A stretch of DNA of 56,286 nt from Gemmatimonadota bacterium (GTDB lineage Bacteria > Gemmatimonadota > Gemmatimonadetes > Gemmatimonadales > Gemmatimonadaceae): the NCBI GenBank assembly GCA_016194585.1, contig JACQBG010000007.1:1-56286 (forward strand), in the 5' to 3' direction. The notes under the pieces are model-generated. The model saw only the letters and a program-made list of their open reading frames with translations. It was not told the origin of the DNA and searched no databases. The translations under genes were made by a program, and so were the position numbers. This document shows, piece by piece, positions 1 to 35,321 of this stretch (positions within the stretch are counted from its first letter, which is position 1; each line of letters starts with the position of its first letter).

Positions 1-1059
1 TCGTCGGTGCACGCGTTCACGACGGGGACGATCGGCTACTTCTTCCTCGGCTTCATCGCCGTCGTGCTCGTCTCGGCGCTCGTGATGGTGGCCGGCGTCT
101 CCGACCGGCTCAAGACGGTGGGGCACTTCGACTCGCCGGCCTCGCGCGAGACGGTGTTCCTGCTCAACAACCTGTTCCTCACCGTGTTCATGTTCACGGT
201 GCTCACGGGCACGCTCTTCCCGCTCGTCGCTGAGCTCGTGCGCGGCGTGAAGGTGAGCGTGGGCGAGCCGTTCTTCAACAAGATGTCGCTCCCCGTGATC
301 GTCGTCCTGCTCTTCCTGATGGGCGTCGGGCCGGCGCTGCCGTGGAAGGCGGCGACGAGCGCCGAGGTGAAGAACAAGCTGCTCCCGCCGCTCGCCGGCG
401 CCCTCGTGCTCACGCTGATCGCGCTCGCCATGGGGATCCACAACGTGTACGGCGTGCTCGCGTTCGCCTGCACCGGCTACGCGATCGTCGCGAACCTGCG
501 CGAGTTCTACATCGGCGCCGCGGCGCGCCGCAACGCGCACGGCGAGGGGTGGGCGCTCGCGCTCACCCGCCTCATCGGCGCGAACCGCCGGCGCTACGGC
601 GGCTACATCTCGCACCTCGGCGTCTTCCTCGTCGCGCTCGGCATCGCCGCCAGCTCGTCGTTGCGCACCGAGCGCGAGGCGACGCTCGAGCCCGGCCAGA
701 GCGTCACGCTCGCCGGCCGCACGGCGCGCCTCAAGTCGGTGTGGGGGCGCGAGGAGCCGCAGCGTTCGGTCATCGGCGCGACGCTGGAGATCATGAACGG
801 CGACAAGGTCACCGGCAAGGTCGAGCCGCGGATGAACTTCTATCCGATGTCGCAGCAGCCCGTGCCGACCCCCCAGGTGCACAGCTACCTCACGGGCGAC
901 CTGTACGCGAACCTGCAGGCGTTCCAGCAGCAGGGGAAGAACGCGACCGTGAAGCTCATCTGGGAGCCGCTCGTGCCGTGGATCTGGTTCGGCGGCGGCG
1001 TCGTCATCCTTGGGGCGATCGTCGGCATCTGGCCGAATCGCCGGAGGAGCGTGGCATGA
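1..1059 (+). CDS. ccmF: Cytochrome c haem lyase subunit CcmF, C-terminal part (5' truncated by window)
   Basis: CcmF is the membrane haem lyase of System I cytochrome c maturation; it moves haem from holo-CcmE to CXXCH motifs in the periplasm. The reading frame is open from base 1, so about 350 C-terminal residues of a roughly 650-residue family are present. Visible: several membrane segments, the family motif GGYISHLGVF with a conserved haem-ligand-type His near residue 205, a periplasmic beta-rich section (from about residue 225) and a last membrane helix ending in a basic tail. The stop overlaps the next start as ATGA. Direct linkage to ccmG and ccmH makes the assignment firm; the true start lies outside the window. 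Confidence 0.93.
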   Translation, partial: SSVHAFTTGTIGYFFLGFIAVVLVSALVMVAGVSDRLKTVGHFDSPASRETVFLLNNLFLTVFMFTVLTGTLFPLVAELVRGVKVSVGEPFFNKMSLPVIVVLLFLMGVGPALPWKAATSAEVKNKLLPPLAGALVLTLIALAMGIHNVYGVLAFACTGYAIVANLREFYIGAAARRNAHGEGWALALTRLIGANRRRYGGYISHLGVFLVALGIAASSSLRTEREATLEPGQSVTLAGRTARLKSVWGREEPQRSVIGATLEIMNGDKVTGKVEPRMNFYPMSQQPVPTPQVHSYLTGDLYANLQAFQQQGKNATVKLIWEPLVPWIWFGGGVVILGAIVGIWPNRRRSVA

Positions 1060-1682
1060 ACTGGAAGCGCGCGTCCATCGCATCGCTGTTCGCGGTGCCC
1101 GTCATCCTGCTGTTCGCCTACGGCATGACGCAGGATCCGAAAGACATCCCGTCCCCCCTGCCGGGGCGGGAGGCGCCCACGTTCTCGCTGAGCGTGTTCG
1201 CCCCCGGGCAGCCGCCGCTCCAGCGGAACGTCGGCGACACCATCCGCCTCGCCGACATGAAAGGCGATGTGGTGGTGCTCAACTTCTGGGCGTCGTGGTG
1301 CCTGGCCTGCCGGGACGAGCACACGACGCTGAGCGAGGTCGCGCGGAACTACGCCGGCAAGCCCGTGCACTTCTACGGCGTGCTGTACAACGACGAGCCC
1401 GCCAACGGCACGAACTGGATCGCCGAGATGGGCGGGCAGAGTTACCCGTCGTTGAACGATCCCAAGGCGCGCACGGCGATCGATTACGGGCTCTACGGCG
1501 TGCCGGAGACGTTCTTCCTCGACCGCAACGGCCGGGTGGCGTACAAGCATACCGGCCCGGTGCCGGCGTCGGTGCTCGCGCGCGTGATCGACTCGCTGAT
1601 GGCGGTCCCGGCGACGGGCGCGGCCGACGCCTCGCCGGCCGGCCCGGCGGGCCCGGCGGCGGCACCGAAGGCGGGGGGCTGA
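1056..1682 (+). CDS. ccmG: Thiol:disulfide interchange protein CcmG/DsbE
   Basis: Membrane-tethered periplasmic thioredoxin-fold reductase that keeps apocytochrome CXXCH thiols reduced for haem attachment. Residues 8-23 form the single N-terminal anchor, the active site is WCLAC (Cys82, Cys85) in the context NFWASWC, and the cis-proline loop is GVPET (Pro150). The C-terminus ends in an Ala/Gly/Pro-rich tail of about 25 residues that looks disordered. Start ATG overlaps the ccmF stop by 4 bases and follows GGAGGAG by about 7 bases. Length (208 aa) is slightly above the usual 180-190 because of the tail. Co-transcription with ccmF and ccmH is very likely. Confidence 0.93.
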   Translation: MNWKRASIASLFAVPVILLFAYGMTQDPKDIPSPLPGREAPTFSLSVFAPGQPPLQRNVGDTIRLADMKGDVVVLNFWASWCLACRDEHTTLSEVARNYAGKPVHFYGVLYNDEPANGTNWIAEMGGQSYPSLNDPKARTAIDYGLYGVPETFFLDRNGRVAYKHTGPVPASVLARVIDSLMAVPATGAADASPAGPAGPAAAPKAGG

Positions 1683-1683
1683 G

Positions 1684-2220
1684 ATGACGCGCCGACTGTG
1701 GGTCGTCCTCGCCCTCATGGCCGCGCCGGTGTTGGCGCGTTCCCAGGGCGCCGCTGTTCCGGCGCCGCTCCCCGACCCGAGGCAGGCCGGCGTGATCTCG
1801 CCGGAGCAGATCCAGAAGGAAGGGAAGAGCGCGGACGAGCGGGCCGCGCTCAATCTGAAGACCGCGGGCGACACGGCGCTCGAGGCGATGACGACGGCGG
1901 TGGCGTCCGAGCTCCGCTGTCCCGTGTGCCAGGGATTGTCGCTGCAGGCCTCCCCCTCGGAGCTCGCGCAGCAGATGCGTGGGCTCGTGAAGGACCAGCT
2001 GGCCGCCGGCAAGACCCCTGATGAGGTGAAGGCCTATTTCGTGTCGAAGTACGGCGAGTGGATCCTGTTGTCGCCCAAGCCGAGGGGCTTCAACTTGCTT
2101 GTCTACGTACTTCCCCTAGTCTTGGTAGGGAGCGGAATAACCTTTATCTGGGTAATGGTACGGAAGTGGAGCCGTCCGGAGCTAACTGATGCTGACCGGA
2201 CACCTTCTGGACCAGCATGA
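1684..2220 (+). CDS. ccmH: Cytochrome c-type biogenesis protein CcmH
   Basis: CcmH is the apocytochrome thiol oxidoreductase of System I, working with CcmG and CcmF. A signal peptide (about residues 1-20) precedes a periplasmic domain with the diagnostic LRCPVCQ motif (Cys79, Cys82), the conserved helix bundle, and the sequence SKYGEWILLSP before a transmembrane helix at about 137-157. At 178 aa it matches the short CcmH form without the CcmI/TPR extension. It starts one base after the ccmG stop. The last 40 or so codons (from about base 2090) switch to A/T-richer codons such as CTA, GTA and ATA, unlike the rest of the gene. Confidence 0.92.
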   Translation: MTRRLWVVLALMAAPVLARSQGAAVPAPLPDPRQAGVISPEQIQKEGKSADERAALNLKTAGDTALEAMTTAVASELRCPVCQGLSLQASPSELAQQMRGLVKDQLAAGKTPDEVKAYFVSKYGEWILLSPKPRGFNLLVYVLPLVLVGSGITFIWVMVRKWSRPELTDADRTPSGPA

Positions 2221-2388: not shown

Positions 2389-3876
2389 ATGATGCATCCC
2401 CGGGTCAAAGTGCTGACGCTGCTGTCGGCCGTGTCCGTTCTCCTCGCCGCGTGCACGTCGGAGAAGCTGGTGTACCGCGATGGGCCGAACTACGCGACGC
2501 CGACGACCGGCGCGCAGGGTTTCATCGGCTACGCCGATGAGGCCACGAAGAAGACGGTCTGCGGATCGTGCCACGTCGAGAAGCAGGCGGCCTGGCAGAC
2601 CACCAAGCATGCGAGCGCGTGGAAGGACCTCTCGACCAGCGGCTCGATGCAGTCCTATTGCCAGCCGTGCCACACGGTCAACGGTCAGGGCAACTCCAAC
2701 AACGATCCCAAGGCAGGCTTCGGCGACGCGTCGGCCGCGCAGTATCACGACGTGCAGTGCGAGAGCTGCCACGGCCCGGGCCTGACGCACGTGTCGAGCC
2801 CGAGCATGACCAACCAGCCCCTGGCGTCGATCAAGGCCGACACGGGGCTCAAGAACGGCTGCGGCGAGTGCCACAGCGGCACGCACAACCCGTTCGTCGA
2901 CGAATGGCGCATCTCCGGCCACGCCTCGACGTGGGCCACCGCGCACAACAGCACCGATCCGTACTGCCAGAGCTGCCACACCGGGCAGGGCGCGCTGGCG
3001 GCCTGGGGCGTGACGTCGAACTACATCGAGAAGAACAACACGTCGGGTGGTACGGCGAACATGCTCGGCGCGACCTGCGCCGTCTGCCACGACCCGCACG
3101 GGTCGCCCAACACCGCGCAGCTCCGCTTCCCGATCAACGCGCCGAGCACCGACGCGAACCTCTGCACCAAGTGCCACCAGCGGCGCGCCACCTTCCAGGA
3201 TGCCATCGCGATGGGGCGCAACAGCGTGCATTCGCCCGAAGGCCCGACGTTGTTCGGTCAGGCGGGCTGGTTCCCGCCGGGCATGAGCGCCGCCGACTCG
3301 ATCGTCAGCTCGCACGGCAGCGTCGCCAAGAACCCCAACCTCTGCGCGACCTGCCACGTCGCGAAGTACTCGGGCACGGATCCGCTCACCAAGGCGGCCA
3401 CGTTCAGTACCGGGCACCGCTTCCTCGCCACCCCGTGCGTCGATGCCGGCGGCCTCCCGCTCAAGGACCAGACGAACTGCCAGGTGACGTCGATGACATT
3501 CCGCAGCTGCGTGAGCGGCAGCTGCCACGCGACGGAATCGCTCGCCCGCAACGCCTTCAACACGGCGACGGCCCGCGTCGGCCTGCTCAATGGTGAAGCG
3601 ACGCGCCTCATCACGCTCATCAAGGCCGGCCCGAAGGCGTCCGATTGCACCTTCTCCACCACGAAGCCGTACAACTCCTGCCTCGGCACGCAGTTCAACC
3701 AGAGCGTCGTGACGAAGACGGGCGGCATCGTCCACAATCCATTCCTCCTCGAGCAGCTCATGATCGCGTCGATCAACCAGCTCAAGAAGGACTACGGCGT
3801 GGCGAGCTCGGCCGACATCAGCCTCGAACCGCAGCTCAAGCGCCCGGACGGCGTGAAGTTCAACGCCAACCACTAA
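2389..3876 (+). CDS. Multiheme c-type cytochrome lipoprotein (8 CXXCH plus one CX4CH)
   Basis: Predicted electron-transfer lipoprotein of 495 aa. A longer frame opens at 2329, but GGAGG at 2374-2378 and the signal peptide favour ATG 2389. The lipobox is LAAC with Cys22 as the lipidated residue. Haem motifs in order are CGSCH (58-62), CQPCH, CESCH, CGECH, CQSCH, CAVCH, CTKCH and CATCH, followed by CVSGSCH, a rare CX4CH spacing that may bind a ninth haem. Segments such as CAVCHDPHG and CXXCH...W..T.H resemble DmsE/c554-type doubled-CXXCH cytochromes. The C-terminal ~120 residues lack haem motifs. It follows ccmH by 168 bases and heads the cytochrome/porin cluster. The electron acceptor cannot be told from sequence. 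Confidence 0.85.
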   Translation: MMHPRVKVLTLLSAVSVLLAACTSEKLVYRDGPNYATPTTGAQGFIGYADEATKKTVCGSCHVEKQAAWQTTKHASAWKDLSTSGSMQSYCQPCHTVNGQGNSNNDPKAGFGDASAAQYHDVQCESCHGPGLTHVSSPSMTNQPLASIKADTGLKNGCGECHSGTHNPFVDEWRISGHASTWATAHNSTDPYCQSCHTGQGALAAWGVTSNYIEKNNTSGGTANMLGATCAVCHDPHGSPNTAQLRFPINAPSTDANLCTKCHQRRATFQDAIAMGRNSVHSPEGPTLFGQAGWFPPGMSAADSIVSSHGSVAKNPNLCATCHVAKYSGTDPLTKAATFSTGHRFLATPCVDAGGLPLKDQTNCQVTSMTFRSCVSGSCHATESLARNAFNTATARVGLLNGEATRLITLIKAGPKASDCTFSTTKPYNSCLGTQFNQSVVTKTGGIVHNPFLLEQLMIASINQLKKDYGVASSADISLEPQLKRPDGVKFNANH

Positions 3877-3889
3877 GCACCTGGTAGTC

Positions 3890-3929
3890 GCGTGCACGGT
3901 CGGATCGGCCCGGAGTCGACCGTGCACGC
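3890..3929 (+). terminator. 13-bp perfect stem-loop after the first multiheme cytochrome gene
   Basis: GCGTGCACGGTCG (3890-3902) is perfectly inverted at 3917-3929 with a 14-base loop. It starts 13 bases after the stop codon and is not followed by a T tract, so it could be a Rho-independent-like terminator, an attenuator tuning downstream cytochrome expression, or an mRNA 3'-end stabiliser. Confidence 0.5.
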
Positions 3930-4004
3930 AGTGACGCGGGATCGACGGGTCACGTTGGCCCGCCGGTCCCGCGCCGCCGTTTTCACCCCGAGCTTCCGCA
4001 TCCG

Positions 4005-4772
4005 ATGATCACGTCGCTGCTCTACGCCCTGACCCAGGGGCCCGCCGTGCTCGTCGGTGGCCCGCTGGCACTGGCCGCCGCCTGGCTGAGTTGGAGTCAC
4101 CGCGTCGCGCTCGGCGCGTGGGTCCGCCGAGCACGCGGCGCGCACGAGCTCGCCCTCTGTGGCGTGATCGGCTTCGCCGCCTTCCCGGCGCCGCAGGACA
4201 CCGCCACCTTCCAGCACGCCCGGCACACGTCCGTCGAATGCGTCGAGTGCCATGGCACCGGCGAGCGGCACGGCAAGCTCAAATTCGGCGGGCCGGAGGG
4301 GTGCCGCTCGTGCCACCACGGAGTGACGCAACCCTCGACGTGCGCGGCCTGTCATGCCACGGCGCCGAAGGCGCGCGACGTGAACGTCACCATCCACGTC
4401 ACCGGTCGCAAGACGTCCCCGACCCGCGCCCTGCGTTTCCGTCACGAGCAGCACGCGAAGCTCGACTGCAAGAGCTGTCACCAGCCGGACGTCGATCGCA
4501 CGGTGGAGAAGAACTGCGTCTCGTGCCACGCCGATCACCACGGGCCGGCGCGCGACTGCACGAGCTGCCACGCCGATGCCCGCAAGGGGCACGACCTCAC
4601 CGCGCACGATGACTGCGCGACCTGTCACAAGGGGAAGGGGCTGCCGGCGCTCACGTTCACGCGCGCGCTCTGCCTCACCTGCCACGCCGCGCAGCGCAAC
4701 CACGAACCGGGCGGCGACTGCGCCGCCTGTCATGCCGTCGCGTCGCACGGCGCGGCGGGAGGGCGCAACTGA
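4005..4772 (+). CDS. Nine-haem c-type cytochrome with hydrophobic N-terminus
   Basis: 255-aa protein with nine CXXCH motifs (CVECH, CRSCH, CAACH, CKSCH, CVSCH, CTSCH, CATCH, CLTCH, CAACH) packed into about 185 residues, several preceded by HxxH patterns like class III (c3/c7-type) cytochromes, which use bis-His haems. Residues 1-35 are hydrophobic and a second hydrophobic stretch lies around 50-62, so the protein is either anchored in the inner membrane or exported by an unusual N-terminus. It could relay electrons from the quinone pool or an inner-membrane enzyme to the outer-membrane module encoded next. Start ATG 4005 is the only reasonable start before the first haem site. Its stop overlaps the next start by one base (TGATG). 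Confidence 0.82.
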   Translation: MITSLLYALTQGPAVLVGGPLALAAAWLSWSHRVALGAWVRRARGAHELALCGVIGFAAFPAPQDTATFQHARHTSVECVECHGTGERHGKLKFGGPEGCRSCHHGVTQPSTCAACHATAPKARDVNVTIHVTGRKTSPTRALRFRHEQHAKLDCKSCHQPDVDRTVEKNCVSCHADHHGPARDCTSCHADARKGHDLTAHDDCATCHKGKGLPALTFTRALCLTCHAAQRNHEPGGDCAACHAVASHGAAGGRN

Positions 4773-6214
4773 TGCTTCGACGACTGCGACTGGTCCTCTG
4801 CGCGCTCCTCCCGGTCGCCGCTTCGGCGCAGGGAGTGCGCGTCACCGGCGTGACGTACATCCAGACCGTGGAGCTCCGCCCGCTCGTCAACGACTCGATC
4901 TCGACCTATTACACCACCGGCAGCGGGGAGTGGCGCACCCTCGCCGACGGCACCCCGGTGCGATGCCTGAGCGGCAACGACTTCTGCACCTACCAGCGCT
5001 CAGGCGCGAACATCTTCGCCGCGCCGCTCGTGCAGGACCTCTCGTTCGCGTCGTGGGGGATCGGCGAGGGACTCAGCATCCATGCCGACGTGCGCGGACG
5101 CACGCAGCTCACGACCGAGGGCCTCATCTATCCGCGCGGCGACCGCAACTTCGAACTCATGGACGCGTACGCCGAGCTCGAACGCTCGTGGGGGCGCGGC
5201 CGCCTCGGCCGGCAGTGGCTCACCGGCGCGCTCGGCGTCTACACGTTCGACGGCGCCGACCTGATGCTGCGGCGCAACAAGTTCTCCGTCGAGGGCTGGG
5301 CGGGGCGCGCGCTCGAGGCGGGGCTCAACAACACCTTCGCCAGCGCCGAGCTCGCGGGGATCGAGAACATCCCGCCCGACCAGGACGGGTACATCTTCGG
5401 CGTGCGCGGGCGGTTCCGCCCCGACGCCATCACGGCCGTGTCCGCGACCTATCAGCGCGTGCTCATCGCCGACCACAGCGGGCTCTATTCCGAGCGGGCC
5501 GCCTTCGATGCGACCACGCGCACGCACGGCGCCGCGATCGACGTCGCCGGCACGTACGACTTCGTGACCGGCGAGTGGAACGAGGCGCGCCTGCGTGTCG
5601 GACGCGCCGGCCTGCACGCGCTCGGCGTCTCGGCGGAGGTGCGCCACAGCGTGCCGTTCTTCGAGACGTGGACGATCTGGGGCGCCTTCACGCCGGTCGG
5701 CTTCAACGAAGCGCGGGCGACGCTTGACTGGCGGATGCAGGGCATGCCGATCGTCATCTCGGCACATGGCGCGTACCGCAAGTACGCCGGCACCGACGCG
5801 GGCCTCACGTTGCGCACCAACGGCTGGCGTGCCGGCGCCGACGTCATGTGGCAGGGGTCGGGGGCGATCTCCGGCTACGCCTCGTACGACGTGGACATCG
5901 GCGACGGCGCGTCGAGCAACGACGTGCGCGCCACGCTGCGCTGGAGCGGCGACGGCGAGCGGACGTTCGGCATCACCGGATCGGCCGTGCAGAACATCTA
6001 CGAGTTCCGGATCGGCACGGGGCGCGTGATCGGTGGCGGCGTCGACGCGGCCTGGCCGATCGCGCCGGACCTGCGCCTGATGGCCGATTGGGGGCTGTAC
6101 CGACAGCTGTTCTCCATCGGCGCCCCCGGACCTGACTGGACACAACGCCGCGCTTCCGTGCGGCTGGAATGGACGCTGGGCCGCGATCCGGGCCTCGCCG
6201 GGAAGGGTAAATGA
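4772..6214 (+). CDS. Outer-membrane beta-barrel protein of the cytochrome cluster (porin-like)
   Basis: 480-aa exported protein: signal peptide 1-20 ending ASAQG, then alternating aromatic/polar beta-strand patterns throughout and a C-terminal strand rich in R, L, E and W. Two cysteines about 6 residues apart (CLSGNDFC, near residue 70) could form a disulfide in a loop. It is shorter than MtrB/PioB porins (around 700 aa) and has no CXXC at its N-terminus, so it is not an obvious MtrB. Its place between two multiheme cytochrome genes, with TGATG and ATGA overlaps on both sides, implies co-translation and a role as the barrel of a porin-cytochrome conduit. That role is inferred from context; the barrel prediction itself is fairly safe. 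Confidence 0.72.
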   Translation: MLRRLRLVLCALLPVAASAQGVRVTGVTYIQTVELRPLVNDSISTYYTTGSGEWRTLADGTPVRCLSGNDFCTYQRSGANIFAAPLVQDLSFASWGIGEGLSIHADVRGRTQLTTEGLIYPRGDRNFELMDAYAELERSWGRGRLGRQWLTGALGVYTFDGADLMLRRNKFSVEGWAGRALEAGLNNTFASAELAGIENIPPDQDGYIFGVRGRFRPDAITAVSATYQRVLIADHSGLYSERAAFDATTRTHGAAIDVAGTYDFVTGEWNEARLRVGRAGLHALGVSAEVRHSVPFFETWTIWGAFTPVGFNEARATLDWRMQGMPIVISAHGAYRKYAGTDAGLTLRTNGWRAGADVMWQGSGAISGYASYDVDIGDGASSNDVRATLRWSGDGERTFGITGSAVQNIYEFRIGTGRVIGGGVDAAWPIAPDLRLMADWGLYRQLFSIGAPGPDWTQRRASVRLEWTLGRDPGLAGKGK

Positions 6215-7707
6215 AGCGACTCATGACGTTCCTCGCCGTCGCGCTGTTCCCGATCGCGCTCGTGTCGCAGGGGGCGGCCTTCCCGCACGCGAAGCACGCG
6301 AAACTCTTCCCGACCTGCCTCGGCTGCCACGCGGGCGTGGCGGACGGCAATGCCGCGCGCATGTTCCCCGCGGTGACGCAGTGCGGTGCGTGCCATGACG
6401 GCAAGCGGCAGAAGCTCGTGACCTATGCGGCTCCCGCGCCGCACGGCGCCGGCCTGCTCAAGTTCTCGCATCCCAAGCACGCCGACCAGGCCGGCGACCA
6501 GGCGACCTGCGCCACGTGCCACGGCGAGGCCGGCGACAAGTCGCCGTGGATGAGCGTCGGACGGCCCGCGCAGTCGCGATGCGCGGGGTGCCACACGCAG
6601 GACGCGCCGGAGCACTTCGCCGACGCCAACAGCTGCTCGTACTGCCACGTCACGCTCGCGCAGGCGACGGGGCTCAGCGACGGACGCGTGAACGCGCTGC
6701 CCAAGCCCGCCTCGCACGCCCAGAAGGACTTCGCGCAGGCACACGGCCTCGCCGCGAAGAAGAGCACCGCGTCGTGCGCGACGTGCCATGCCCGCGAGAG
6801 TTGCGCGCGCTGCCACGTGGACGCGAACCGGTCGGCCGTCATCAAGAAGCTCGCCGCCGATCCGCGCGTCGCGCGCCTCGCGGCGTCGCGGCCGTCGGTG
6901 TACCCCGTGCCGCTCGATCACCGGGCAGCGAACTTCGACCGGCTGCACGGCCCGGCGGCGCGCGCGAACACCGCCCGGTGCGCGATGTGCCATGCGCGGC
7001 CGAGCTGTGCGACCTGCCACACCGCCGACGGCGCGGCGAACGTGCTGTCGAGACTCCCCGATGCCGATGAGGCGGCCGGCCGCGGGGTGCAGTTGAAGCG
7101 CGCGATCGAGCCGCCACACAGCGAGAGCCCGGTGACGCTCACCGGCGCCGGCAGCTGGATGCCCAAGCCGCACGCGACCGACAGCGTGCGGCAGGTGCGG
7201 GTGCATCCCTCGGGGTTCGTGCGGGCGCATGGCGGGGCCGCGTCGGCCGAGGCGCTCAGCTGCCAGGGGTGCCACAAGGAGTCGTTCTGCAAGGATTGCC
7301 ACGTCGGCGAGCGCGTGGGACCGCGCCGCTATCACGTGGCGAACTTCGTCACGCGCCACGCATCGAGCGCCTACGGACGCGACGCCGAGTGCAGCACGTG
7401 CCACAACACGGGGGCGTTCTGCCGCTCGTGCCATCAGCAGGCGGGACTCGCGTCGCAGGGCAACGGCCGCAGTCTCGGCTACCACAACGCGCAGCCACAA
7501 TGGCTGCAGGAACATGGCCGGGCGGCGCGGCAGGAACTGAACACCTGCGCGTCGTGCCATCAGCAGCGGTACTGCATGCAGTGCCACTCCGACCTGGGCT
7601 GGCGTATCAACCCGCACGGACCGAACTTCGACGCGAGCCGTTACGCCAAGGCCAACAGGCAACAGTGCCTGCGGTGCCATTTCAAGGATCCGCTCGGCGG
7701 CAAATAG
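6211..7707 (+). CDS. Sixteen-haem periplasmic/secreted c-type cytochrome
   Basis: 498-aa protein with a cleavable signal peptide (about 1-22) and sixteen CXXCH motifs: CLGCH, CGACH, CATCH, CAGCH, CSYCH, CATCH, CARCH, CAMCH, CATCH, CQGCH, CKDCH, CSTCH, CRSCH, CASCH, CMQCH and CLRCH. Many come in close pairs (for example CATCHARESCARCH), typical of paired-CXXCH cytochromes. An early HAKHAKLFPTCLGCH matches c7-type packing. A haem-free gap of about 90 residues in the middle suggests two haem-bearing lobes. Start ATG overlaps the barrel-gene stop (ATGA). Likely a long-range electron carrier across the periplasm or through/at the barrel; no catalytic signature was seen. Confidence 0.85.
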   Translation: MKRLMTFLAVALFPIALVSQGAAFPHAKHAKLFPTCLGCHAGVADGNAARMFPAVTQCGACHDGKRQKLVTYAAPAPHGAGLLKFSHPKHADQAGDQATCATCHGEAGDKSPWMSVGRPAQSRCAGCHTQDAPEHFADANSCSYCHVTLAQATGLSDGRVNALPKPASHAQKDFAQAHGLAAKKSTASCATCHARESCARCHVDANRSAVIKKLAADPRVARLAASRPSVYPVPLDHRAANFDRLHGPAARANTARCAMCHARPSCATCHTADGAANVLSRLPDADEAAGRGVQLKRAIEPPHSESPVTLTGAGSWMPKPHATDSVRQVRVHPSGFVRAHGGAASAEALSCQGCHKESFCKDCHVGERVGPRRYHVANFVTRHASSAYGRDAECSTCHNTGAFCRSCHQQAGLASQGNGRSLGYHNAQPQWLQEHGRAARQELNTCASCHQQRYCMQCHSDLGWRINPHGPNFDASRYAKANRQQCLRCHFKDPLGGK

Positions 7708-7729
7708 CCGGGCCCAAGGGAGAGTATCG

Positions 7730-8200
7730 ATGACGATGATGATTCGCCCCCGCGCGCGCTGGATGGTGCTGGCCGCCGCCGCGCTGACGCTGGTGGCGTG
7801 CGGCAAGAAGGAAGACGACGGCAAGATCCCGCTCTCGGCGGAGGCGAAGATGCCGGCCGACAGCGTGCACAAGGGGATGGTCCAGCCGGTGCCGGCGCTC
7901 GAGGCGCTCCCGCCGGCGGCGCAGGCGGCGCTCGACAGCGGCAACGCCCTGTTCCGCAAGAAGCTGTACGCACAGGCGATGGAGCGGTATCGCGCGACAG
8001 AGAAGCTCGTCCCGAACCATCCGTCGGCCGTCTACGGCATCTACATGGTCGCGCGGGCGACGAACGACACCACGCTCGCCGACAGCGCGCTCGCCGTGAT
8101 CAAGAAGTACAACGCCGTGATGCCGCACGGGAAGATGGACAGCACCGCTGCGCTCGAGGCACACAAGAAGGCGGGAGTGACCCTGCCGCCGAAGGGCTGA
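7730..8200 (+). CDS. Small lipoprotein with TPR-like helical repeat, end of cytochrome cluster
   Basis: 156-aa predicted lipoprotein. A signal peptide ends with the lipobox LVAC (Cys around residue 24) after ATG 7730; ATG 7736 and 7739 are alternative starts. The mature part contains a helix pair resembling a tetratricopeptide repeat (residues about 63-115, pattern NALFRKKLYAQAMERYR). It follows the 16-haem gene by 22 bases on the same strand and could be an assembly or docking factor for the cytochromes. I do not recognise a named family. Confidence 0.7.
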   Translation: MTMMIRPRARWMVLAAAALTLVACGKKEDDGKIPLSAEAKMPADSVHKGMVQPVPALEALPPAAQAALDSGNALFRKKLYAQAMERYRATEKLVPNHPSAVYGIYMVARATNDTTLADSALAVIKKYNAVMPHGKMDSTAALEAHKKAGVTLPPKG

Positions 8201-8301: not shown

Positions 8302-8769
8302 ATGACGACGACCATCGCCGCGGGGCAGACCGCCCCCGACTTCACGCTCGATGCCACCGGTGGCACGCCGGTGTCGCTCTCGGCGTTCCGTGGCAAGCAG
8401 CACGTGCTGCTCGCCTTCTTCCCGCTCGCCTTCACGAGCACCTGCACGGCCGAGCTGTGCGCCTTCACCGACGACTACTCGGCGTTCGCGTCGAAGGACG
8501 TGGCGGTGGTGCCGATCAGCGTGGACGCGGTGCCGAGCCTGAAGGTGTTCAAGGCGCAGCACCAGATGGCCGTCGAACTCGCCAGCGACTTCAAGCGCGA
8601 GGTCGCCCGCGCCTACGGCGTGCTCAACGAGGAGAAGTTCTTCGCCAACCGTGCCTACGTGCTCATCGACAAGCAGGGGGTCGTGCGGTGGAGCCACGTC
8701 GAGGCCGTGAACGGGCAGCGTCGCGAGAACGCCGAGATCCTGGCCGAGATCGCCAAGCTCGGCGCCTGA
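8302..8769 (+). CDS. Thiol peroxidase of the AhpC/TSA family (PrxQ/BCP-like)
   Basis: 155-aa cytosolic peroxiredoxin that reduces H2O2 and organic hydroperoxides. The Trx-fold peroxidatic site is in PLAFTSTCTAELC: Cys48 is peroxidatic and Cys53 is the likely resolving Cys, the C-x4-C arrangement of PrxQ/BCP enzymes. No signal peptide. ATG 8302 gives the standard N-terminus (APDFTL at 11-16). It stands alone, convergent with hsp20. A thioredoxin reductase in this window (46291) could help supply reductant. Confidence 0.87.
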   Translation: MTTTIAAGQTAPDFTLDATGGTPVSLSAFRGKQHVLLAFFPLAFTSTCTAELCAFTDDYSAFASKDVAVVPISVDAVPSLKVFKAQHQMAVELASDFKREVARAYGVLNEEKFFANRAYVLIDKQGVVRWSHVEAVNGQRRENAEILAEIAKLGA

Positions 8770-9585: not shown

Positions 9586-11150
9586 GTACTCCTGTCGCCT
9601 CCGCTTCCGTGCCGACGCCGGCCGCCGCTCCCGGCGGAGCGTTGCCGACGCTCGCGGACATGATCGCGGAACTCGCGTCGATCCGGCCGCTGGAGGAGAG
9701 CGTGGTGCGTTGCCTCGCGCTCCTCGTCGGTGCGGTCGGCGCGCACGAGGCGTCGATCTGGTTGCACGCGCCCGACGTGCTGGTGCGCGCGTGGGGGGTG
9801 GGGGGGCCGGAGACGAGCGCCGCCGAGGTCGAGCACGCACGCGAACAGCCGGCGGCGGCGCCGATGCTCCGGGCGGTGGACATCGCCGCGGGCGACAGGC
9901 CGGCGGGCGCCCTCGTCGTGCGCCTCACGCGAACGCTCGCGGCCGACGAAGAGCTGGTCGTGCGCGCCCTCGCCAACCTGCTCGCCCCGGAGCTCGCGCA
10001 CGCCGAGAAGAGCCGGCAGCTCGAGGTCGAGGTCGAGGCGCGGACGGCGGAGATCGATCGGGAGCGGCGCTTCACGGAGAAGATCATCGACGCCCTCCCC
10101 GTGGGCCTCTACGTGATCGATCGCGAATATCGCATTCAGGCGTGGAACCGGAAGCGCGAGACGGGCATGCAGGGCGTGAGCCGTGAAGAGGCGATCGGCC
10201 GCACGATCTTCGAGATCTTGCACCGGCAGCCCAGCGAGATGCTGCGGCGCGAGTTCGACGAGGTGTTCACGACCGGGCGCATCCAGGAATACCAGATGGA
10301 ATCGCTCGCCACGGGCGAACTGCGCACGTATCGCATCACCAAGATCCCGATGCGGCTCGGCGATTCCGCGGTGACGCACGTGATCACCACGGGCGAGGAC
10401 GTCACCGACTGGAAGGAGGCGCAGCAGCGGTTCGCGCAGGCGGAGAAGCTCGCCGCGATCGGCCAGCTCGCCGCCGGCGTCATGCACGAGATCAACAACC
10501 CGCTGGCGACGATCGCGGCCTGTGCCGAGAGCCTCGGCTTCAAGCTCGGCGACGCGCGCAAGGCGGGGAGCGTGATCCCGACCGACGCCGACGAGTACCT
10601 GCACATCATCGACAACGAAGTGTCGCGCTGCAAGCAGATCGTCGACGGACTGCTCGACTTCAGCCGGCCCAAGCAGGCGCTCAAGGAACGGGTGGATCTC
10701 AACGAGGTGATCGAGCGCACGCTGCTGCTGCTCAAGCACCACGTGCGGTTCAAGAAGCTCACCGTGAGCACGGAGTTCGACGCGACGCTGGAGCGCATCC
10801 CGCAGGCCAACGCCGAGCAGCTCGTGCAGGTGTTCATGGCGCTGCTGCTGAACGCGATGGACGCGATGGGCGACCGCGGGTCGGTCGTGCTGCGCACGCG
10901 CCGCGGCCGGACCAACGACGAGGGCGCGATCGCCGAGGTGATCGACCAGGGGCACGGCATCGCCCGGTCGGAGCTCTCGAAGATCTTCGAGCCGTTCTAC
11001 ACCACGAAGGCGCCGGGGCGTGGCACGGGGCTCGGGCTGTCGATCTGCTATGGCATCATCCAGGAGCACGGCGGCCGCATCGAGGTCGACAGCGTGCTCG
11101 GCCAGGGGAGCACCTTCCGCCTGATCCTGCCGACGGTCGGGCACCGATGA
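9582..11150 (+). CDS. PAS-domain sensor histidine kinase (NtrB-like)
   Basis: 522-aa soluble kinase without transmembrane helices. Order: GAF-like N-terminal region (about 25-140), a coiled coil (140-165), a PAS domain (about 165-280, core GLYVIDREYRIQAWN), HisKA with the H-box GVMHEINNPL (His302), then HATPase_c with the N-box NAMDAM and G-boxes DQGHGI and GTGLGLSI. The H-box style (HEINNPL) is that of NtrB-type kinases that pair with AAA+ regulators. Start TTG 9582 is inferred from the frame; ATG 9660 is possible. Its stop overlaps the next gene's ATG, so the two form a cognate pair. Confidence 0.88.
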   Translation: MSTPVASASVPTPAAAPGGALPTLADMIAELASIRPLEESVVRCLALLVGAVGAHEASIWLHAPDVLVRAWGVGGPETSAAEVEHAREQPAAAPMLRAVDIAAGDRPAGALVVRLTRTLAADEELVVRALANLLAPELAHAEKSRQLEVEVEARTAEIDRERRFTEKIIDALPVGLYVIDREYRIQAWNRKRETGMQGVSREEAIGRTIFEILHRQPSEMLRREFDEVFTTGRIQEYQMESLATGELRTYRITKIPMRLGDSAVTHVITTGEDVTDWKEAQQRFAQAEKLAAIGQLAAGVMHEINNPLATIAACAESLGFKLGDARKAGSVIPTDADEYLHIIDNEVSRCKQIVDGLLDFSRPKQALKERVDLNEVIERTLLLLKHHVRFKKLTVSTEFDATLERIPQANAEQLVQVFMALLLNAMDAMGDRGSVVLRTRRGRTNDEGAIAEVIDQGHGIARSELSKIFEPFYTTKAPGRGTGLGLSICYGIIQEHGGRIEVDSVLGQGSTFRLILPTVGHR

Positions 11151-19799: not shown

Positions 19800-21980
19800 A
19801 TGCCTTCGCAGTCCACCCTCCTGATGATCATCCTGGGCGCGTCGATCGGCGCCCTCGTGTTCGCCGTCGGTCTCGCGCGCTGGGTGCTGGCGCGCAGCAC
19901 CGGCACGCCGGAGATGCGCAAGATCTCCGACGCCATCCAGACCGGCGCCGAAGCGTACCTGGCCCGACAGAACAAGACGATCGCGATGCTCGCGGTGCTC
20001 GTGGCCGCGGTGCTGGCGGTCGGGTATGGCGTGCTGCGCGGCCACGCCGCCACCGATCCGGTCGACGACCCCAAGGTGTTCGCGCTCTTCATCACGCTCT
20101 CGTTCCTCCTTGGCGCACTGAGCTCGGGGATCGCCGGTTACATGGGGATGTGGGTGTCGATCCGCACGAACATCCGCGTCGCGTCGGCGGCGATGGGCTC
20201 GCTGAACGCGGCGCTGCAGACGGCGCTGCGCGGCGGCGCGGTGTCGGGGCTGTTCACCGTCGCGATGAGCCTGCTCGGCGTCGGCGGCCTGTTCGCCATC
20301 CTGACGTTCTTCATCCCGGCCGGGCTCAGTTCGGACGCGTGGACGCAGAAGATCCCCTTCCTGATCGTCGGCTATGGCTTCGGCGCCTCGTTCGTGGCGC
20401 TGTTCGCGCAGCTCGGCGGCGGCATCTACACGAAGGCGGCCGACGTCGGCGCCGACCTCGTGGGCAAGGTCGAGGCGGGGATCCCGGAGGACGACCCGCG
20501 CAACCCGGCGGTGATCGCCGACCTCGTGGGCGACAACGTCGGCGACTGCGCCGGCCGCGGCGCCGACCTGTTCGAGAGCACGGCGGCCGAGAACATCGGC
20601 GCGATGATCCTCGGCGTGTTGCTGTTCAAGACCTTCGGCGTGGCGGGGATCCTCTTCCCGCTCATCATCGGGTCGTTGGGGCTGGTGGCGTCGATCGTCG
20701 GCGTGATGTCGGTGAGCACGACGGAGGACGCCGACCCGATGAAGGCGCTGAACCGCGGCTATTACATCACGGCCGCGCTGGTGAGCGTGGCGATCTTCTT
20801 CGCCTGCAAATGGCTGCTCGTGACGCCCGACGCGCCCGACGCGTGGTGGCACTACTTCATCTGCGCGATGATCGGCGTGGCGACGTCGATCGCGTTCGTC
20901 TTCATCACGCAGTACTACACGGAGTACCGGTACCGTCCGGTGCTCTCGATCGCGAGCGCCTCGCAGACGGGCCCGGCGACGAACATCATCATGGGGCTCA
21001 GCGTCGGCATGGAGTCGACGGTGCTCCCCGTGTTCACGATCGCGATCGCGCTGGTGTCGAGCTTCATGGTCGGCCGCGCGAGCGGCATCCTGATCGACGG
21101 ACTGCCCGCGGGCGGGCTGTTCGGCACGGCGGTGGCGACGATGGGGATGCTGGGCACGGCGGGCTACATCCTCGCGATGGACGTGTTCGGCCCGATCACC
21201 GACAACGCCGGCGGCATCGTCGAGATGTCGAAGGCGCCCTCCGAGATCCGCGACAAGACGGACCGTCTCGACTCGGTGGGGAACACGACGAAGGCGCTCA
21301 CGAAGGGGTACGCGATCGGCTCGGCGGCGCTGGCCGCCTTCCTCCTCTTCTCGGCGTACCTCGACGAGGTGAAGAACTACACGCAGCAGACGCTGCACGT
21401 CGACCTGAGCAAGCCGCAGGTGTTCGTGAGCGCGCTCATCGGCGGCATGCTCGTGTTCTGGTTCTCCTCGCTGGCGATGACGGCGGTGAGCAAGGCCGCG
21501 CAGAGCGTGATCACCGAGGTGCGCCGCCAGTTCAAGGAGCGTCCGGGGATCATGCAGGGGACCGAGGAGCCGGACTACGCGGCGTGCGTGGACATCGTGA
21601 CGGTCGGCGCGCTGAAGGCGATGGTGCTGCCGGGCGCGCTGGTGCTGGCCTTCCCGATCGGCGTGGGGCTCACATTCAAGTATCTGGGCGGCCAGGGCGA
21701 GCACCTCGGCGCCGAGGCGGTCGCGGGCTTCCTGATGATCGCGACGGTGGTGGGCATCCTCATGGCCGGCTTCCTGAACAACGGCGGCGGCGCGTGGGAC
21801 AACGCCAAGAAGTACATCGAGACGGGCGTGTACGGCGGCAAGAAGTCGGACGCGCACAAGGCGGCGGTGGTCGGCGACACCGTCGGCGACCCGTTCAAGG
21901 ACACCGCGGGGCCGTCGTTGCACGTGCTCATCAAGCTGCTCTCGACGATCACGCTGGTGCTGGCTCCGCTCTTCATCTGA
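19800..21980 (+). CDS. hppA: Membrane-bound proton-translocating pyrophosphatase, K+-independent type
   Basis: 726-aa polytopic (about 16 helices) ion-pumping inorganic pyrophosphatase. Diagnostic substrate-binding motifs are DVGADLVGKVE and DNVGDCAGRGADLFE (about 218-262), and the C-terminal GDTVGDPFKDTAGPS. The potassium switch reads GNTTKA with Lys498; in this family Lys there marks K+-independent enzymes, whereas Ala (GNTTAA) marks K+-dependent ones. It couples PPi hydrolysis to proton export and would add to the membrane potential used by the symporters and TonB systems nearby. ATG 19800. Confidence 0.95.
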   Translation: MPSQSTLLMIILGASIGALVFAVGLARWVLARSTGTPEMRKISDAIQTGAEAYLARQNKTIAMLAVLVAAVLAVGYGVLRGHAATDPVDDPKVFALFITLSFLLGALSSGIAGYMGMWVSIRTNIRVASAAMGSLNAALQTALRGGAVSGLFTVAMSLLGVGGLFAILTFFIPAGLSSDAWTQKIPFLIVGYGFGASFVALFAQLGGGIYTKAADVGADLVGKVEAGIPEDDPRNPAVIADLVGDNVGDCAGRGADLFESTAAENIGAMILGVLLFKTFGVAGILFPLIIGSLGLVASIVGVMSVSTTEDADPMKALNRGYYITAALVSVAIFFACKWLLVTPDAPDAWWHYFICAMIGVATSIAFVFITQYYTEYRYRPVLSIASASQTGPATNIIMGLSVGMESTVLPVFTIAIALVSSFMVGRASGILIDGLPAGGLFGTAVATMGMLGTAGYILAMDVFGPITDNAGGIVEMSKAPSEIRDKTDRLDSVGNTTKALTKGYAIGSAALAAFLLFSAYLDEVKNYTQQTLHVDLSKPQVFVSALIGGMLVFWFSSLAMTAVSKAAQSVITEVRRQFKERPGIMQGTEEPDYAACVDIVTVGALKAMVLPGALVLAFPIGVGLTFKYLGGQGEHLGAEAVAGFLMIATVVGILMAGFLNNGGGAWDNAKKYIETGVYGGKKSDAHKAAVVGDTVGDPFKDTAGPSLHVLIKLLSTITLVLAPLFI

Positions 21981-32060: not shown

Positions 32061-32639
32061 ATGGGGAGCCCTTCTCAAGGAATTCGGACCGCCCGGCGCT
32101 GGGCCAGGGAGCTGGTGCCGGTGGCGGTCCTGCTGGCGCTCCTCTTCGGGAGCGCCGCCCTGGCGTGGAAACTCCTCACGCGCCCCGATCCTCGCCCCAC
32201 GGTGGTCGTCAACGACGCCGAGCGGAACGCGCCCCCGTACTTCTCGGTCGCCGCGGCGGCCGTGGACCTCGAGGTCATCGCACCCGACGGCCGCCGCGCG
32301 ACCACCATCGCGACCTCGGACTCGAGCCGGCGTCTTCCCGCCGCCGAGACGAACGTCGACTGCGGCGGCTACGGGCGCGAGAAGGAATCGGAGTCGGCGT
32401 GCACGGCGAGCATCATCGTGCACGAGCCGGCCATGGGCGCCTGGAAGGTGGTCGTCACGTCGAGCGACTCCACGCGCGGCGAGGCCGTGAGCGTCGGCTA
32501 CGGCGGAAAGGGGTTCCGGCGCTCCGGTGGGTTCGCGGTGCGCGTCCTCGTCGACGCGCACCGGTCGGTGGAGTTCTCGATCGCCGTCGCCCCGGAAGGG
32601 GTCAGCCAAACGTCGAAGGTGACGGCTCCGCCGCGCTGA
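32061..32639 (+). CDS. Hypothetical single-pass membrane protein
   Basis: 192-aa protein: basic N-terminus, one membrane helix (about 18-38), and an extracytoplasmic beta-rich domain with a Cys pair near residues 100 and 112 (ETNVDCGGYG...ESACTA). The C-terminal end resembles a small immunoglobulin-like or lipocalin-like beta domain, but no family is recognised. Its 3' end overlaps the convergent SSS gene by 38 bases. The 61-base gap upstream separates it from the divergent Fe-S gene. Confidence 0.65.
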   Translation: MGSPSQGIRTARRWARELVPVAVLLALLFGSAALAWKLLTRPDPRPTVVVNDAERNAPPYFSVAAAAVDLEVIAPDGRRATTIATSDSSRRLPAAETNVDCGGYGREKESESACTASIIVHEPAMGAWKVVVTSSDSTRGEAVSVGYGGKGFRRSGGFAVRVLVDAHRSVEFSIAVAPEGVSQTSKVTAPPR

Positions 32640-34419
32640 ACGACCGCGAGATCCACCAGAACGCCGCCACGGCGATGGCGAGCATCACGAGCCCGCTGCC
32701 CGTGAACCCGAAGATGATCTTCCCGATGCCGAAGAGCGTCGAGTAGACCGCGACGATGCCGGCGATCCAGTTCGTCCACGCCAGCGCGCCGCCGGGGATC
32801 GCCTCGCGGCCGAAGCCGAGGCGGCCGGACACCGCCGCCCACCCCGGCCCGCCCGGGCGCACGCGCCGGTAGAACGCGTCGAGCGTCGCCTCGGGCTCGG
32901 GCTTCGTGAGGAAGGTGACGGCGAGCCACACGACGGTGCTGCAGGCGACCGTCACGAGCATGATCGTGGCCGTCGCGTTGGGGTCGTCCTTGGCGAACTG
33001 CGGTTTGATGAACGCGAAGCCCGCGACGCTAACCATAAAACTGGTTACCATCGCCGAGATCTCGCTCCACGCGTTGATCCGCCACCAGTACCAGCGCAGG
33101 ATCAGCACCAGCCCCGTTCCCGCGCCGAGCGCGAGCAGCAGCTCCCACGCCTTCTCGACGCTCGAGAGCTGGCTCGTCACCACCACCGACGCGAGGAACA
33201 GCAACACCGTCGTGAGCCGCGACACGCCGACGTAGTGCTTCTCGCTCCCGTCGCGCTTCACGAACCGCTTGTAGAAGTCGTTCACCAGATACGACGCCCC
33301 CCAGTTCAGGTGCGTGCCGACGGTGCTCATGTACGCCGCCGCGAAGCCGGCGAGCATGAAGCCGCGCCACGGTGTCGGCAGCAGGTCGACGAACGCCTTC
33401 ACGTACCCCGACTCCTTGTCCTGCAGGGTGGGGTAGAGGATCACCGTCGCGAGGCCGGTCACGATCCACGGCCACGGGCGCAGCGCGTAGTGCGCGATCT
33501 GGAAGAACAGCGTGGCGAGCACGCCGTCGCGTTCCGTCTTGGCGCTGAAGATCCGCTGCGCCACGTAGCCGCCGCCGCCGGGCTCCGCGCCGGGATACCA
33601 CGCCGCCCACCACTGCACGCTCAGGTACACGGCGAGCGTCATCACGGGCATCCACGCATACGCGTGGAAGCCGGCCGCGTCCCAGCTCAACGGGAGCACC
33701 GAGAGCGCCGCCTTCTGGCTCCCGAAGTGCTCGGCGAGCTTCACCTTCATCACGTCGATGCCGCCGACGGCGCGCACCGCGTACACCGCCAGGATGATGA
33801 CGGCGCTCATCTTGATCACGAACTGCACGAGGTCGGTCCAGAGCACGGCCCACATCCCCGCGGCGACCGAGTAGGCGAGGGTGATCACGAAGCAGATGCC
33901 CACGGCGACGACCTCGCCGCTCACCGTGAAGCCGGCGACGTGCACGTCGCGCAGGCCGAGCGAGATGGTGAGGATCTTGATCATCGCCCGCGTGACCCAG
34001 CCGAGGATGATGAGGTTGATGGGGATCGCGAGGTAGAGCGCGCGGAACCCGCGCAGGAACGCCGCCGGCCGGCCGCTGTAGCGCACCTCGGCGAGCTCGA
34101 CGTCGGTCATCACCCGGGCGCGGCGCCAGAGCCGCGCGAAGAAGAAGACGGTGAGCATCCCGCTCATCACGAAGTTCCACCAGAGCCAGTTGCCGGCGAC
34201 TCCCTTCGAGGCGACGAGCCCGGTGACGACGAGCGGCGTGTCCGCGGCGAACGTCGTCGCGACCATCGCCGCGCCGGCGAGCCACCACGGCACCTGCCGC
34301 CCCGAGAGGAAGTACTCGTCGAGGCTCTCGCCGCCCCGCTTCGTGAAGTAGAGTCCGATCCCCGCCGAGAGCAGGAAGTACGACGCGACGATCGCCCAGT
34401 CGACGACGGTGAGGGTCAT
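32602..34419 (-). CDS. Sodium:solute symporter (SSS family), GH3-linked
   Basis: 605-aa symporter with about 14 helices. Motifs include SGRQVPWW near residue 39, the long Leu/Val-rich TM arrays and GMWAVLWTDLVQF. Larger than the other SSS gene (605 against 503), with a longer C-terminal region typical of some SSS subgroups. ATG 34419 overlaps the stop of the beta-lactamase-like ORF (ATGA), tying it to the GH3 gene; probably imports products of peptidoglycan turnover, by context only. Confidence 0.88.
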   Translation of the reverse strand: MTLTVVDWAIVASYFLLSAGIGLYFTKRGGESLDEYFLSGRQVPWWLAGAAMVATTFAADTPLVVTGLVASKGVAGNWLWWNFVMSGMLTVFFFARLWRRARVMTDVELAEVRYSGRPAAFLRGFRALYLAIPINLIILGWVTRAMIKILTISLGLRDVHVAGFTVSGEVVAVGICFVITLAYSVAAGMWAVLWTDLVQFVIKMSAVIILAVYAVRAVGGIDVMKVKLAEHFGSQKAALSVLPLSWDAAGFHAYAWMPVMTLAVYLSVQWWAAWYPGAEPGGGGYVAQRIFSAKTERDGVLATLFFQIAHYALRPWPWIVTGLATVILYPTLQDKESGYVKAFVDLLPTPWRGFMLAGFAAAYMSTVGTHLNWGASYLVNDFYKRFVKRDGSEKHYVGVSRLTTVLLFLASVVVTSQLSSVEKAWELLLALGAGTGLVLILRWYWWRINAWSEISAMVTSFMVSVAGFAFIKPQFAKDDPNATATIMLVTVACSTVVWLAVTFLTKPEPEATLDAFYRRVRPGGPGWAAVSGRLGFGREAIPGGALAWTNWIAGIVAVYSTLFGIGKIIFGFTGSGLVMLAIAVAAFWWISRSFSAAEPSPSTFG

Positions 34420-35318
34420 TTCGAGGGGCCCGTGAGAAGGGGAGCGCCGGTGACGAGGTGCATCACGAGGTCGGCGACTTGCGTGCGGACGGCGGTGATG
34501 CGGGTGTTCGCGCGCGTCGGGTTCACTCGGTTCGTGAGCAGGAGCACGAACAGGTCGTGTCCAGGGTCCATCCAGAGCGAACCGCCGGTGAAGCCGGTGT
34601 GGCCGAACGCGGGGCGGGTCATCAGGTGCCCCGCGGAGTTGGTGCCGTTGGCCGTCTCCCAGAGGAAGGCGCGCGAGGAGAAGGTCGAGTCGACCACGGT
34701 CGTGAAGCGCTTCACCATGGCGCTCGAGGCGATGCGCGCCGCGCCGAGCCGGCCGCCGTTGAGCCACATCTGTGCGTAGCGCGTCATGTCGTGCGCGCTG
34801 CTGAACAGCCCCGCGTGCGGCGACACGCCGCCGAGCGCGAACGCGTTCTCGTCGTGCACTTCGCCCACGAGGTGGCGCTGGCGCCACGGGTCGATCTCCG
34901 TGGGGGCGATGCGGGGGCGCAGCGACGCGGGCGGGTTGTACTGCGTCTCGTCCATGTGCAGCGGGCCGAACACGTGCTGCTTCGCATAGGCGTCGATGCG
35001 CTGCCCGGTGATCGTGCGGAGGATCTCGCCGAGGAGGATGGCGTTGAGGTCGGAGTAGACCATGCGCACCCCCGGGAGCGTGTCGAGCGGCGTCGCGTAC
35101 ACGAGCGCCATGGCCGAGTCGGGGGTGCTCGCTTCCTTGTAGAGCGGGCGCCAGGCCGGCATGCCGGAGCTGTGCGTGAGCAGGTGGCGCACGAGCACGA
35201 GTTCCTTGTGCGTGCCCGTCCAGTTCGGGAGGTAGCGCTGCACGGGCGCGTCGGGGTCGAGCTTCCCCTGCTCGATGAGTTGCATGATCGAGGGCGCGAG
35301 CGCGGTGACCTTGGTGAG
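34416..35318 (-). pseudogene. Beta-lactamase-like (serine hydrolase) C-terminal half of the GH3 fusion, cut off by TAG
   Basis: Downstream half of a GH3/serine-beta-lactamase fusion (about 300 codons; first ATG at 35285). It retains HSSGMP, the YxN-like YSDLN and the KTG-like HTGFTGG, but lacks the SxxK motif because the serine codon is TAG at 35319-35321. Starting from ATG 35285 would leave out the nucleophile, so a stand-alone product could not acylate. The frame is intact to 34416. It is a broken half, or the result of readthrough, or a sequencing error. Confidence 0.7.
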
Positions 35319-35321
35319 CTA
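35319..35321 (-). other. In-frame TAG at the catalytic serine codon of the beta-lactamase domain
   Basis: On the minus strand the frame reads D-L-A-TAG-L-T-K; the class C-like motif is S-L-T-K. TCG to TAG is a single base change (G to T on the given strand). The reading frame continues without other stops for about 300 codons. TAG is a normal stop elsewhere here (e.g. 17285-17287, 19730-19732), so genome-wide recoding is unlikely. Confidence 0.9.

Follow-up and report, generated by a model that had tools for sequence, protein, structure and literature searches.

A putative porin-cytochrome conduit of Gemmatimonadota with a predicted 22-strand barrel, a 16-haem cytochrome and an exchangeable quinol module

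In a 56,286-nucleotide stretch of DNA from a Gemmatimonadota bacterium of the family Gemmatimonadaceae (contig JACQBG010000007.1 of assembly GCA_016194585.1; hereafter the window), the cytochrome c maturation genes ccmFGH are followed on the same strand by five genes that encode a multihaem lipoprotein, a 9-haem protein (gene A), a predicted outer-membrane barrel, a 16-haem cytochrome (C16) and a small lipoprotein (Table 1). The locus raises the questions of (i) whether these genes encode a route for electrons across the outer membrane; (ii) whether such a route is related to the well-studied porin-cytochrome systems; and (iii) how it is coupled to the quinol pool and in which direction it runs. 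Conduits of this kind have been defined by three parts, namely a periplasmic multihaem c-type cytochrome, an integral outer-membrane protein and an outer-membrane redox lipoprotein (PMC6148476), and on the predicted features of its products the cluster qualifies as one. We consider it probable that the cluster encodes an outward trans-outer-membrane conduit for extracellular respiration, in which electrons would pass from the quinol pool through the gene A product to C16 inside the barrel and on to a nonahaem lipoprotein at the cell surface. Our further proposal falls somewhat short of even odds: that this is a separate, phylum-specific class of conduit, consisting of an unplugged 22-strand barrel and a 16-haem wire, usually connected to the quinol pool by a 20-haem NapC fusion whose quinol module has repeatedly disappeared, with a CbcL-type gate taking its place, as in the window genome.

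An AlphaFold2 model of the barrel protein, built with 65 homologues from the loci collected, has a mean predicted local distance difference test score (pLDDT) of 85 and 22 long strands, as counted from the listed elements, and is devoid of a plug domain; short periplasmic turns alternate with longer outer loops. Throughout the alignment, hydrophobic and polar residues alternate on the strand faces; arginine, glycine and serine abound on the face predicted to point inwards. When the model was submitted to Foldseek, the top matches were outer-membrane barrels, with MtrB (6r2q) at rank 28, while structural alignment with VIA placed 22-strand TonB receptor barrels first (Z 18.9), with the alignment confined to their barrel parts, past the plug domains. 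The identification of this product as an outer-membrane beta-barrel, which had been set beforehand as a check on the original prediction, is confirmed by these structure predictions. An unplugged pore of 22 strands would leak unless it were filled, and the barrel would therefore fit the role of a sheath for C16.

Membership of the barrel in the MtrB_PioB family (PF11854) was rejected, as kinship is not detectable: the window barrel has no match in Pfam, PF11854 included, only one of 27 homologues matches PF11854, at an E-value of 0.039, and an hhalign comparison of the barrel profile with local MtrB-type barrels gave a probability of 28% over 177 columns. Comparison with PDB sequences yielded no useful match, and NCBIfam searches with the 65 homologues returned stray single matches, none of them meaningful, from a set of models that included no Ext or Omb barrel. 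The original prediction had taken the shortness of the barrel as one sign of a possibly distinct type; the separation from MtrB/PioB agrees with this, but shortness alone is not unusual, given that Geobacter ExtB, ExtE and ExtI have 18, 21 and 21 predicted transmembrane segments (PMC6148476). PF11854 barrels above the cut-off do occur in 12 of 99 relatives, and 11 such loci were fetched. The neighbour of the barrel is a 10-haem gene in ten of them; in the remaining one it is a 4-haem frame truncated at the contig end. These loci (L136–L146) hold true MtrAB-type pairs of a 10-haem cytochrome and a barrel frame of roughly 740–910 residues, located apart from the cassette of the window type; a 19-haem CbcL-like gene occurs about 3 kb away from the pair of L145. 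Several genomes (e.g., G006, G012, G017, G018, G021, G063 and G064) encode both MtrAB and a barrel of the window type.

The window-type barrel was detected in 41 of the 99 relatives and in 89 of 298 genomes sampled from the phylum (about 30%; a few of these matches are weak). A scan of 84,980 species genomes with one conserved peptide pattern, which distant relatives in other phyla could escape, led to 68 named loci, mostly from metagenome-assembled genomes, and nearly all of their titles name Gemmatimonadetes, Gemmatimonadota or a subgroup; one reads 'bacterium', and two contigs (L127 and L135) belong to a metagenome-assembled genome labelled Candidatus Kuenenia stuttgartiensis, where mis-binning or mislabelling is likely. 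Throughout the phylum the order lipoprotein–A–barrel–C16 is conserved: the nonahaem lipoprotein is encoded upstream of the barrel in 37 of 40 loci, a multihaem gene lies directly upstream of it in 51 of 56, and a multihaem gene with 9–18 CXXCH motifs stands directly 3' of it in all 63 loci with enough sequence. No barrel homologue with enough flank was without a cytochrome gene. Most C16-type partners have 16 haems, the range of 9–18 including incomplete genes. The conduit architecture first read from the window is thus supported by the unplugged 22-strand barrel, by the barrel–C16 pairing and by the relationship of the lipoprotein to OcwA and OmhA described below.

We infer from this invariant pairing and from translational overlap that C16 runs inside the barrel. 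As originally predicted, gene A, barrel and C16 are joined by overlaps, of one base between gene A and barrel (TGATG) and of four between barrel and C16 (ATGA); this coupling is limited to these three genes because 128 bp separate the lipoprotein gene from gene A. C16 and the gene A product each have a signal peptide or membrane anchor and lack a lipobox, features that predict a periplasmic location. Their lengths and motif counts correspond to about 31 and about 28 residues per haem, respectively, and such low ratios fit conducting cytochromes, including those of a very unlikely alternative in which the barrel, instead of sheathing C16, exports or tethers a cytochrome that forms a polymeric, OmcS/OmcE-like nanowire outside the cell. 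No result obtained here points to polymerisation, and both the fixed succession of barrel and C16 and the need to fill the lumen of a plugless 22-strand barrel argue against it. Two further assignments of C16 were rejected: matches to the 16-haem cytochrome HmcA are piecemeal (19 bits, compared with an NCBIfam cut-off of 400), and likeness of its fold to alternative complex III amounts to a lone weak VIA match (Z 3.4), uninformative given a haem-free model that is half poor.

The lipoprotein carries eight CXXCH motifs and, at residues 374–380, a CX4CH motif in which both cysteines and the histidine are conserved in 37 of 37 homologues. Because these residues are invariant and CX2CH takes the place of CX4CH in seven of the homologues (the other 30 have CX4CH), this motif is almost certainly a ninth haem site, bringing the cluster from 33 CXXCH motifs (8 + 9 + 16) to 34 haems; the earlier estimates of 8–9 haems for this protein and of at least 33 motifs overall agree with these numbers. 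The lipobox cysteine is conserved at 90% or more. The best PDB matches of the lipoprotein profile are 6qvm (E 1.4e-20) and 6i5b (E 2e-16), the latter also matched by the single sequence (E 7.7e-11); we take these entries to be OmhA of Carboxydothermus ferrireducens and OcwA of Thermincola potens, respectively. Both proteins have been described as terminal reductases of the cell surface, whether putative or characterised (PMC7829351, PMC6703420), and nonahaem relatives of OcwA have already been reported from Gram-negative bacteria (PMC7829351). The window protein, a nonahaem sequence relative that differs from both in being a lipoprotein of a diderm cassette beside a barrel, is by this homology a candidate terminal cytochrome, which would reside at the cell surface.

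OcwA has open haems 2 and 5 and slowly reduces nitrite and hydroxylamine (PMC6703420), and the lipoprotein profile also touches hydroxylamine oxidoreductase (HAO) and octahaem nitrite reductases. Both observations would suit a NrfA/HAO-like enzyme that reduces soluble oxyanions of nitrogen or sulfur, and to which the barrel–C16 pair supplies electrons or passes small substrates. We regard this as distinctly unlikely: a CXXCK motif is absent from the lipoprotein, a barrel paired with C16 makes little sense with a periplasmic substrate, and the alignment counts nine further conserved histidines for nine haems (a count that pairs no ligand with a particular haem), so that no haem is obviously open. 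This count suggests that, unlike in OcwA, the haems of the lipoprotein are bis-histidine ligated. Similar numbers of conserved non-motif histidines were found in C16 (15 for 16 haem sites) and in the N-terminal (11 for 11) and C-terminal (10 for 9) parts of full-length gene A products, as would be expected for bis-histidine wires.

From the window, gene A had been described as a 9-haem protein with a hydrophobic N-terminus, and it does encode nine CXXCH motifs and a membrane stretch; invisible from the window was its origin. In relatives (e.g., L042 and L072), gene A products have 650–690 residues and 20 haems in one chain. Within the first 390 residues there are 11 haem sites (nine CXXCH, two CX4CH), several membrane segments and one CXXCHxM motif; this part resembles NrfH (E 9.9e-12), and PF03264 was matched in 20 of the 27 members examined. 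The last part is the 9-haem domain. What remains in the window copy is the start, MITSLL, a single membrane stretch, AVLVGGPLALAAAWLSWSHR, which aligns with GILIGGPLALIVAWQCWKHR, and the C-terminal 9-haem domain; the alignment reveals neither the NapC/NrfH/CymA-type quinol-dehydrogenase domain with which the 20-haem proteins begin nor their middle haem domain. On this alignment, gene A of the window is what is left of a larger protein fused to NapC. That its shortness stems from misassembly or a frameshift was judged unlikely, as gene A is similarly short in an independent genome (L041/L068) and the frame is open across the junction. In a tree of barrel and C16, the window and L068 stand beside L042/L069 (in L069 a contig end cuts inside gene A), and L070/L102, whose short A has a signal peptide only, stand beside L071/L072, whose A is fused; these placements indicate at least two separate losses of the NapC domain within the genus. 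In one further locus (L095:12111–13262), a NapC-like domain with nine CXXCH motifs has a gene of its own, located 3' of C16 and not fused to gene A, which supports the modularity of the quinol module.

A second multihaem locus of the window genome (L062, which is contig C13:14000–33333 of G000; positions 9676–16278 of L062) encodes a 952-residue protein with 19 CXXCH motifs and a cytochrome b561-type C-terminus (L062:13420–16278), which matches PF01292 (32.4 bits; cut-off 30.1) and has a formate dehydrogenase gamma-like match (E 1.7e-9). Likened by domain layout, it is a protein of the CbcL/MtrH/MtoC architecture, in which an N-terminal multihaem c part is joined to a C-terminal HydC/FdnI-like cytochrome b and which spans 3–23 haems and 416–1034 residues (PMC6295460). 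Its gene is accompanied by those of a 12-haem protein and a small c554-like protein and, on the opposite strand, of an ImcH-like NapC-family protein with six CXXCH motifs; a PF11854 barrel was not found in the window genome. In an earlier survey, the phylum contributed a single CbcL-like homologue and two ImcH-like ones (PMC6295460).

Across families f1 and f2, a CbcL-like protein is present in none of 22 genomes with the NapC fusion and in eight of nine without it (Fisher p 1.1e-6). These counts cover genomes with a readable gene A; two contig-cut genes were scored as fused from what remains of them, and three cut shorter were excluded. Furthermore, a CbcL-like gene is clear inside eight named loci, beside the cassette, and gene A is fused in none of the eight; five of these genes are full-length, with 45–47% identity. 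Quinol oxidation in the window lineage has thus probably passed to the CbcL-like protein after loss of the NapC domain. In five genomes of family f3 (G060, G062, G064, G068 and G070), two or three CbcL-like cytochrome b domains stand in tandem on one contig, some in frames of more than 1,000 codons; these genomes mostly also have a NapC-fused gene A.

Several results weigh against this account of the conduit and its quinol module. When family f3 is included, a CbcL-like protein is found in five of 28 genomes with the fusion and in eight of nine without it (p 2.5e-4), and the f3 genomes that hold both weaken the either/or pattern; the Fisher tests also treat genomes as independent and ignore shared ancestry. 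In the genome of L068 (G017, 78% complete), gene A is short and a CbcL-like protein was not detected. As for the proposed wire, the C16 model is of poor quality over its second half, with low confidence and no haem, and a Foldseek search with C16 gave no match.

Deletion of the gene A domain in the window and L068, together with the two or more separate losses on the tree, could also mean that the conduit of the window lineage is decaying, a partly disabled remnant left when gene A lost its quinol domain. This appears highly improbable: the reading frames are all intact and their overlaps retained, the barrel is 70–79% identical to its nearest relatives, the short forms of both genomes keep all nine haems, and the deletion accompanies the CbcL-like alternative.

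In the conduit as we propose it, quinol would be oxidised in most relatives by the NapC/NrfH-type domain of the 20-haem gene A product, a single polypeptide that would link the inner membrane to the conduit, and in the window organism by the CbcL-like (or ImcH-like) protein encoded elsewhere in its genome. The 9-haem domain of gene A would hand electrons to C16 on the periplasmic side, the predicted barrel would sheathe C16 across the outer membrane, and C16 would pass them to the OcwA-like lipoprotein, which at the cell surface would reduce a terminal acceptor outside the cell, for example Fe(III) or Mn(IV) oxides. Outward flow is favoured because the lipoprotein is related to terminal reductases, here those of Fe(III) reducers, and because RuBisCO, the one carbon-fixation route searched for, was not found in the window genome; by the RuBisCO route, therefore, there is no sign of lithoautotrophic electron uptake. 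In the inward alternative, Fe(II) or another extracellular donor would feed the lipoprotein and C16, and electrons would reach quinone through the NapC-like or CbcL-like module. Homologues of CymA and CbcL/MtrH/MtoC are known from metal reducers as well as from Fe(II) oxidisers (PMC6295460), sequence cannot fix direction, and lithoheterotrophy is possible. We nevertheless consider inward flow unlikely.

Among known systems, MtrCAB, PioAB and MtoAB share with the cassette the combination of a barrel with a periplasmic multihaem cytochrome and the principle of a sheathed wire, and MtrCAB in addition has a surface multihaem lipoprotein. However, MtrB has 26 strands (PMC7198977) where 22 are predicted here, and MtrB has the decahaem MtrA as partner, whereas the cassette pairs its barrel of 480 residues with the 16-haem C16; the barrels of the MtrAB pairs in relatives have about 770 residues. 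The Omb-Oma-Omc and ExtABCD/ExtEFG conduits of Geobacter, which we compared by description and not by sequence, likewise comprise a periplasmic multihaem protein, a shorter barrel and surface lipoprotein cytochromes, but differ in haem counts and gene order. PCC3 and PCC4 (He et al. 2017, PMC5566968) are also proposed porin-cytochrome clusters of neither Mtr nor Pcc type with an inner-membrane redox partner. Unlike the window cassette, PCC3 has porins of up to 42 segments and cytochromes with medians of 34 and 21 haems, while PCC4 lacks a surface cytochrome and its periplasmic cytochromes have 4, 5 and 10 haems; the inner-membrane partner of these clusters is a five-helix protein rather than NapC-like, and they were reported mainly from Proteobacteria (PMC5566968). 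Just one MtrCAB from the Gemmatimonadetes is listed in an earlier survey (PMC8805035), and a literature search that did not extend to subscription papers and preprints found no paper describing the cassette. We therefore propose, with function and direction argued from sequence, a distinct phylum-specific variant of the porin-cytochrome conduit whose predicted barrel family differs from the well-studied ones.

Soils, peat, groundwater and sediments commonly harbour Gemmatimonadota, and extracellular respiration in these bacteria is hardly described. A conduit in about 30% of the sampled genomes would suggest a common occurrence of extracellular electron transfer in the phylum, and the barrel family would serve as a marker for conduits that Mtr-based searches miss. 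The interest of the system lies in this spread through a poorly studied phylum and in the natural exchange of the NapC fusion for a CbcL-like protein, which makes the coupling of conduit and quinol pool testable.

Table 1. Genes of the cassette and its upstream neighbours (positions in the window)
Feature	Position	Strand	Assignment
ccmF	7–1059	+	cytochrome c maturation; open reading frame
ccmG	about 1056–1682	+	cytochrome c maturation; open reading frame
ccmH	1684–2220	+	Pfam CcmH match, E 9.4e-29
Nonahaem lipoprotein (8 CXXCH, 1 CX4CH)	2389–3876	+	OcwA/OmhA relative; candidate cell-surface terminal cytochrome
Gene A, short form (255 aa, 9 CXXCH)	4005–4772	+	N-terminal membrane stretch and 9-haem C-terminal domain
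Outer-membrane beta-barrel (480 aa, signal peptide)	4772–6214	+	22 predicted strands, no plug; candidate C16 sheath
C16 (16 CXXCH, signal peptide)	6211–7707	+	candidate wire within the barrel
Small lipoprotein	7730–8200	+	TPR/BamD-like; neighbour of the cassette in a minority of relatives

The window (70% G+C) is contig C32 of a 3.34-Mb genome that is 98% complete, and open reading frame calls placed the five genes where the original prediction had them. Across the genome, counts of the CXXCH DNA pattern are 131 for the forward strand and 138 for the reverse strand, compared with 99 and 103 for a backwards control; by these counts, about 0.2 motifs would be expected on one strand at the cluster, and the 33 observed are far above background. 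The link to cytochrome c maturation, by which the cluster had been characterised, holds for the window and is not general: among the 33 loci whose upstream flank was long enough, ccmF/H were found in only 8, a local feature, and the ccm genes are probably upstream neighbours rather than part of the conduit proper. A small TPR/BamD-like lipoprotein is encoded downstream in 16 of 47 loci. A scan for promoters and terminators gave no signal exceeding chance.

In L110 (7250–11814), two overlapping, very haem-rich frames, with 23 and at least 32 CXXCH motifs, lie downstream of a cassette. In the window the cassette is followed by a peroxiredoxin gene (8302–8769), which takes the same position in L042 (76% identity). 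Further along, a frame of 1099 residues on the reverse strand (32602–35901) has a sodium:solute symporter domain at residues 530–951 and no Pfam match in the remainder, which could reflect a fusion or a frame called too long. The window also encodes a membrane H+-pyrophosphatase (19800–21980; PF03030, E 4.8e-260).

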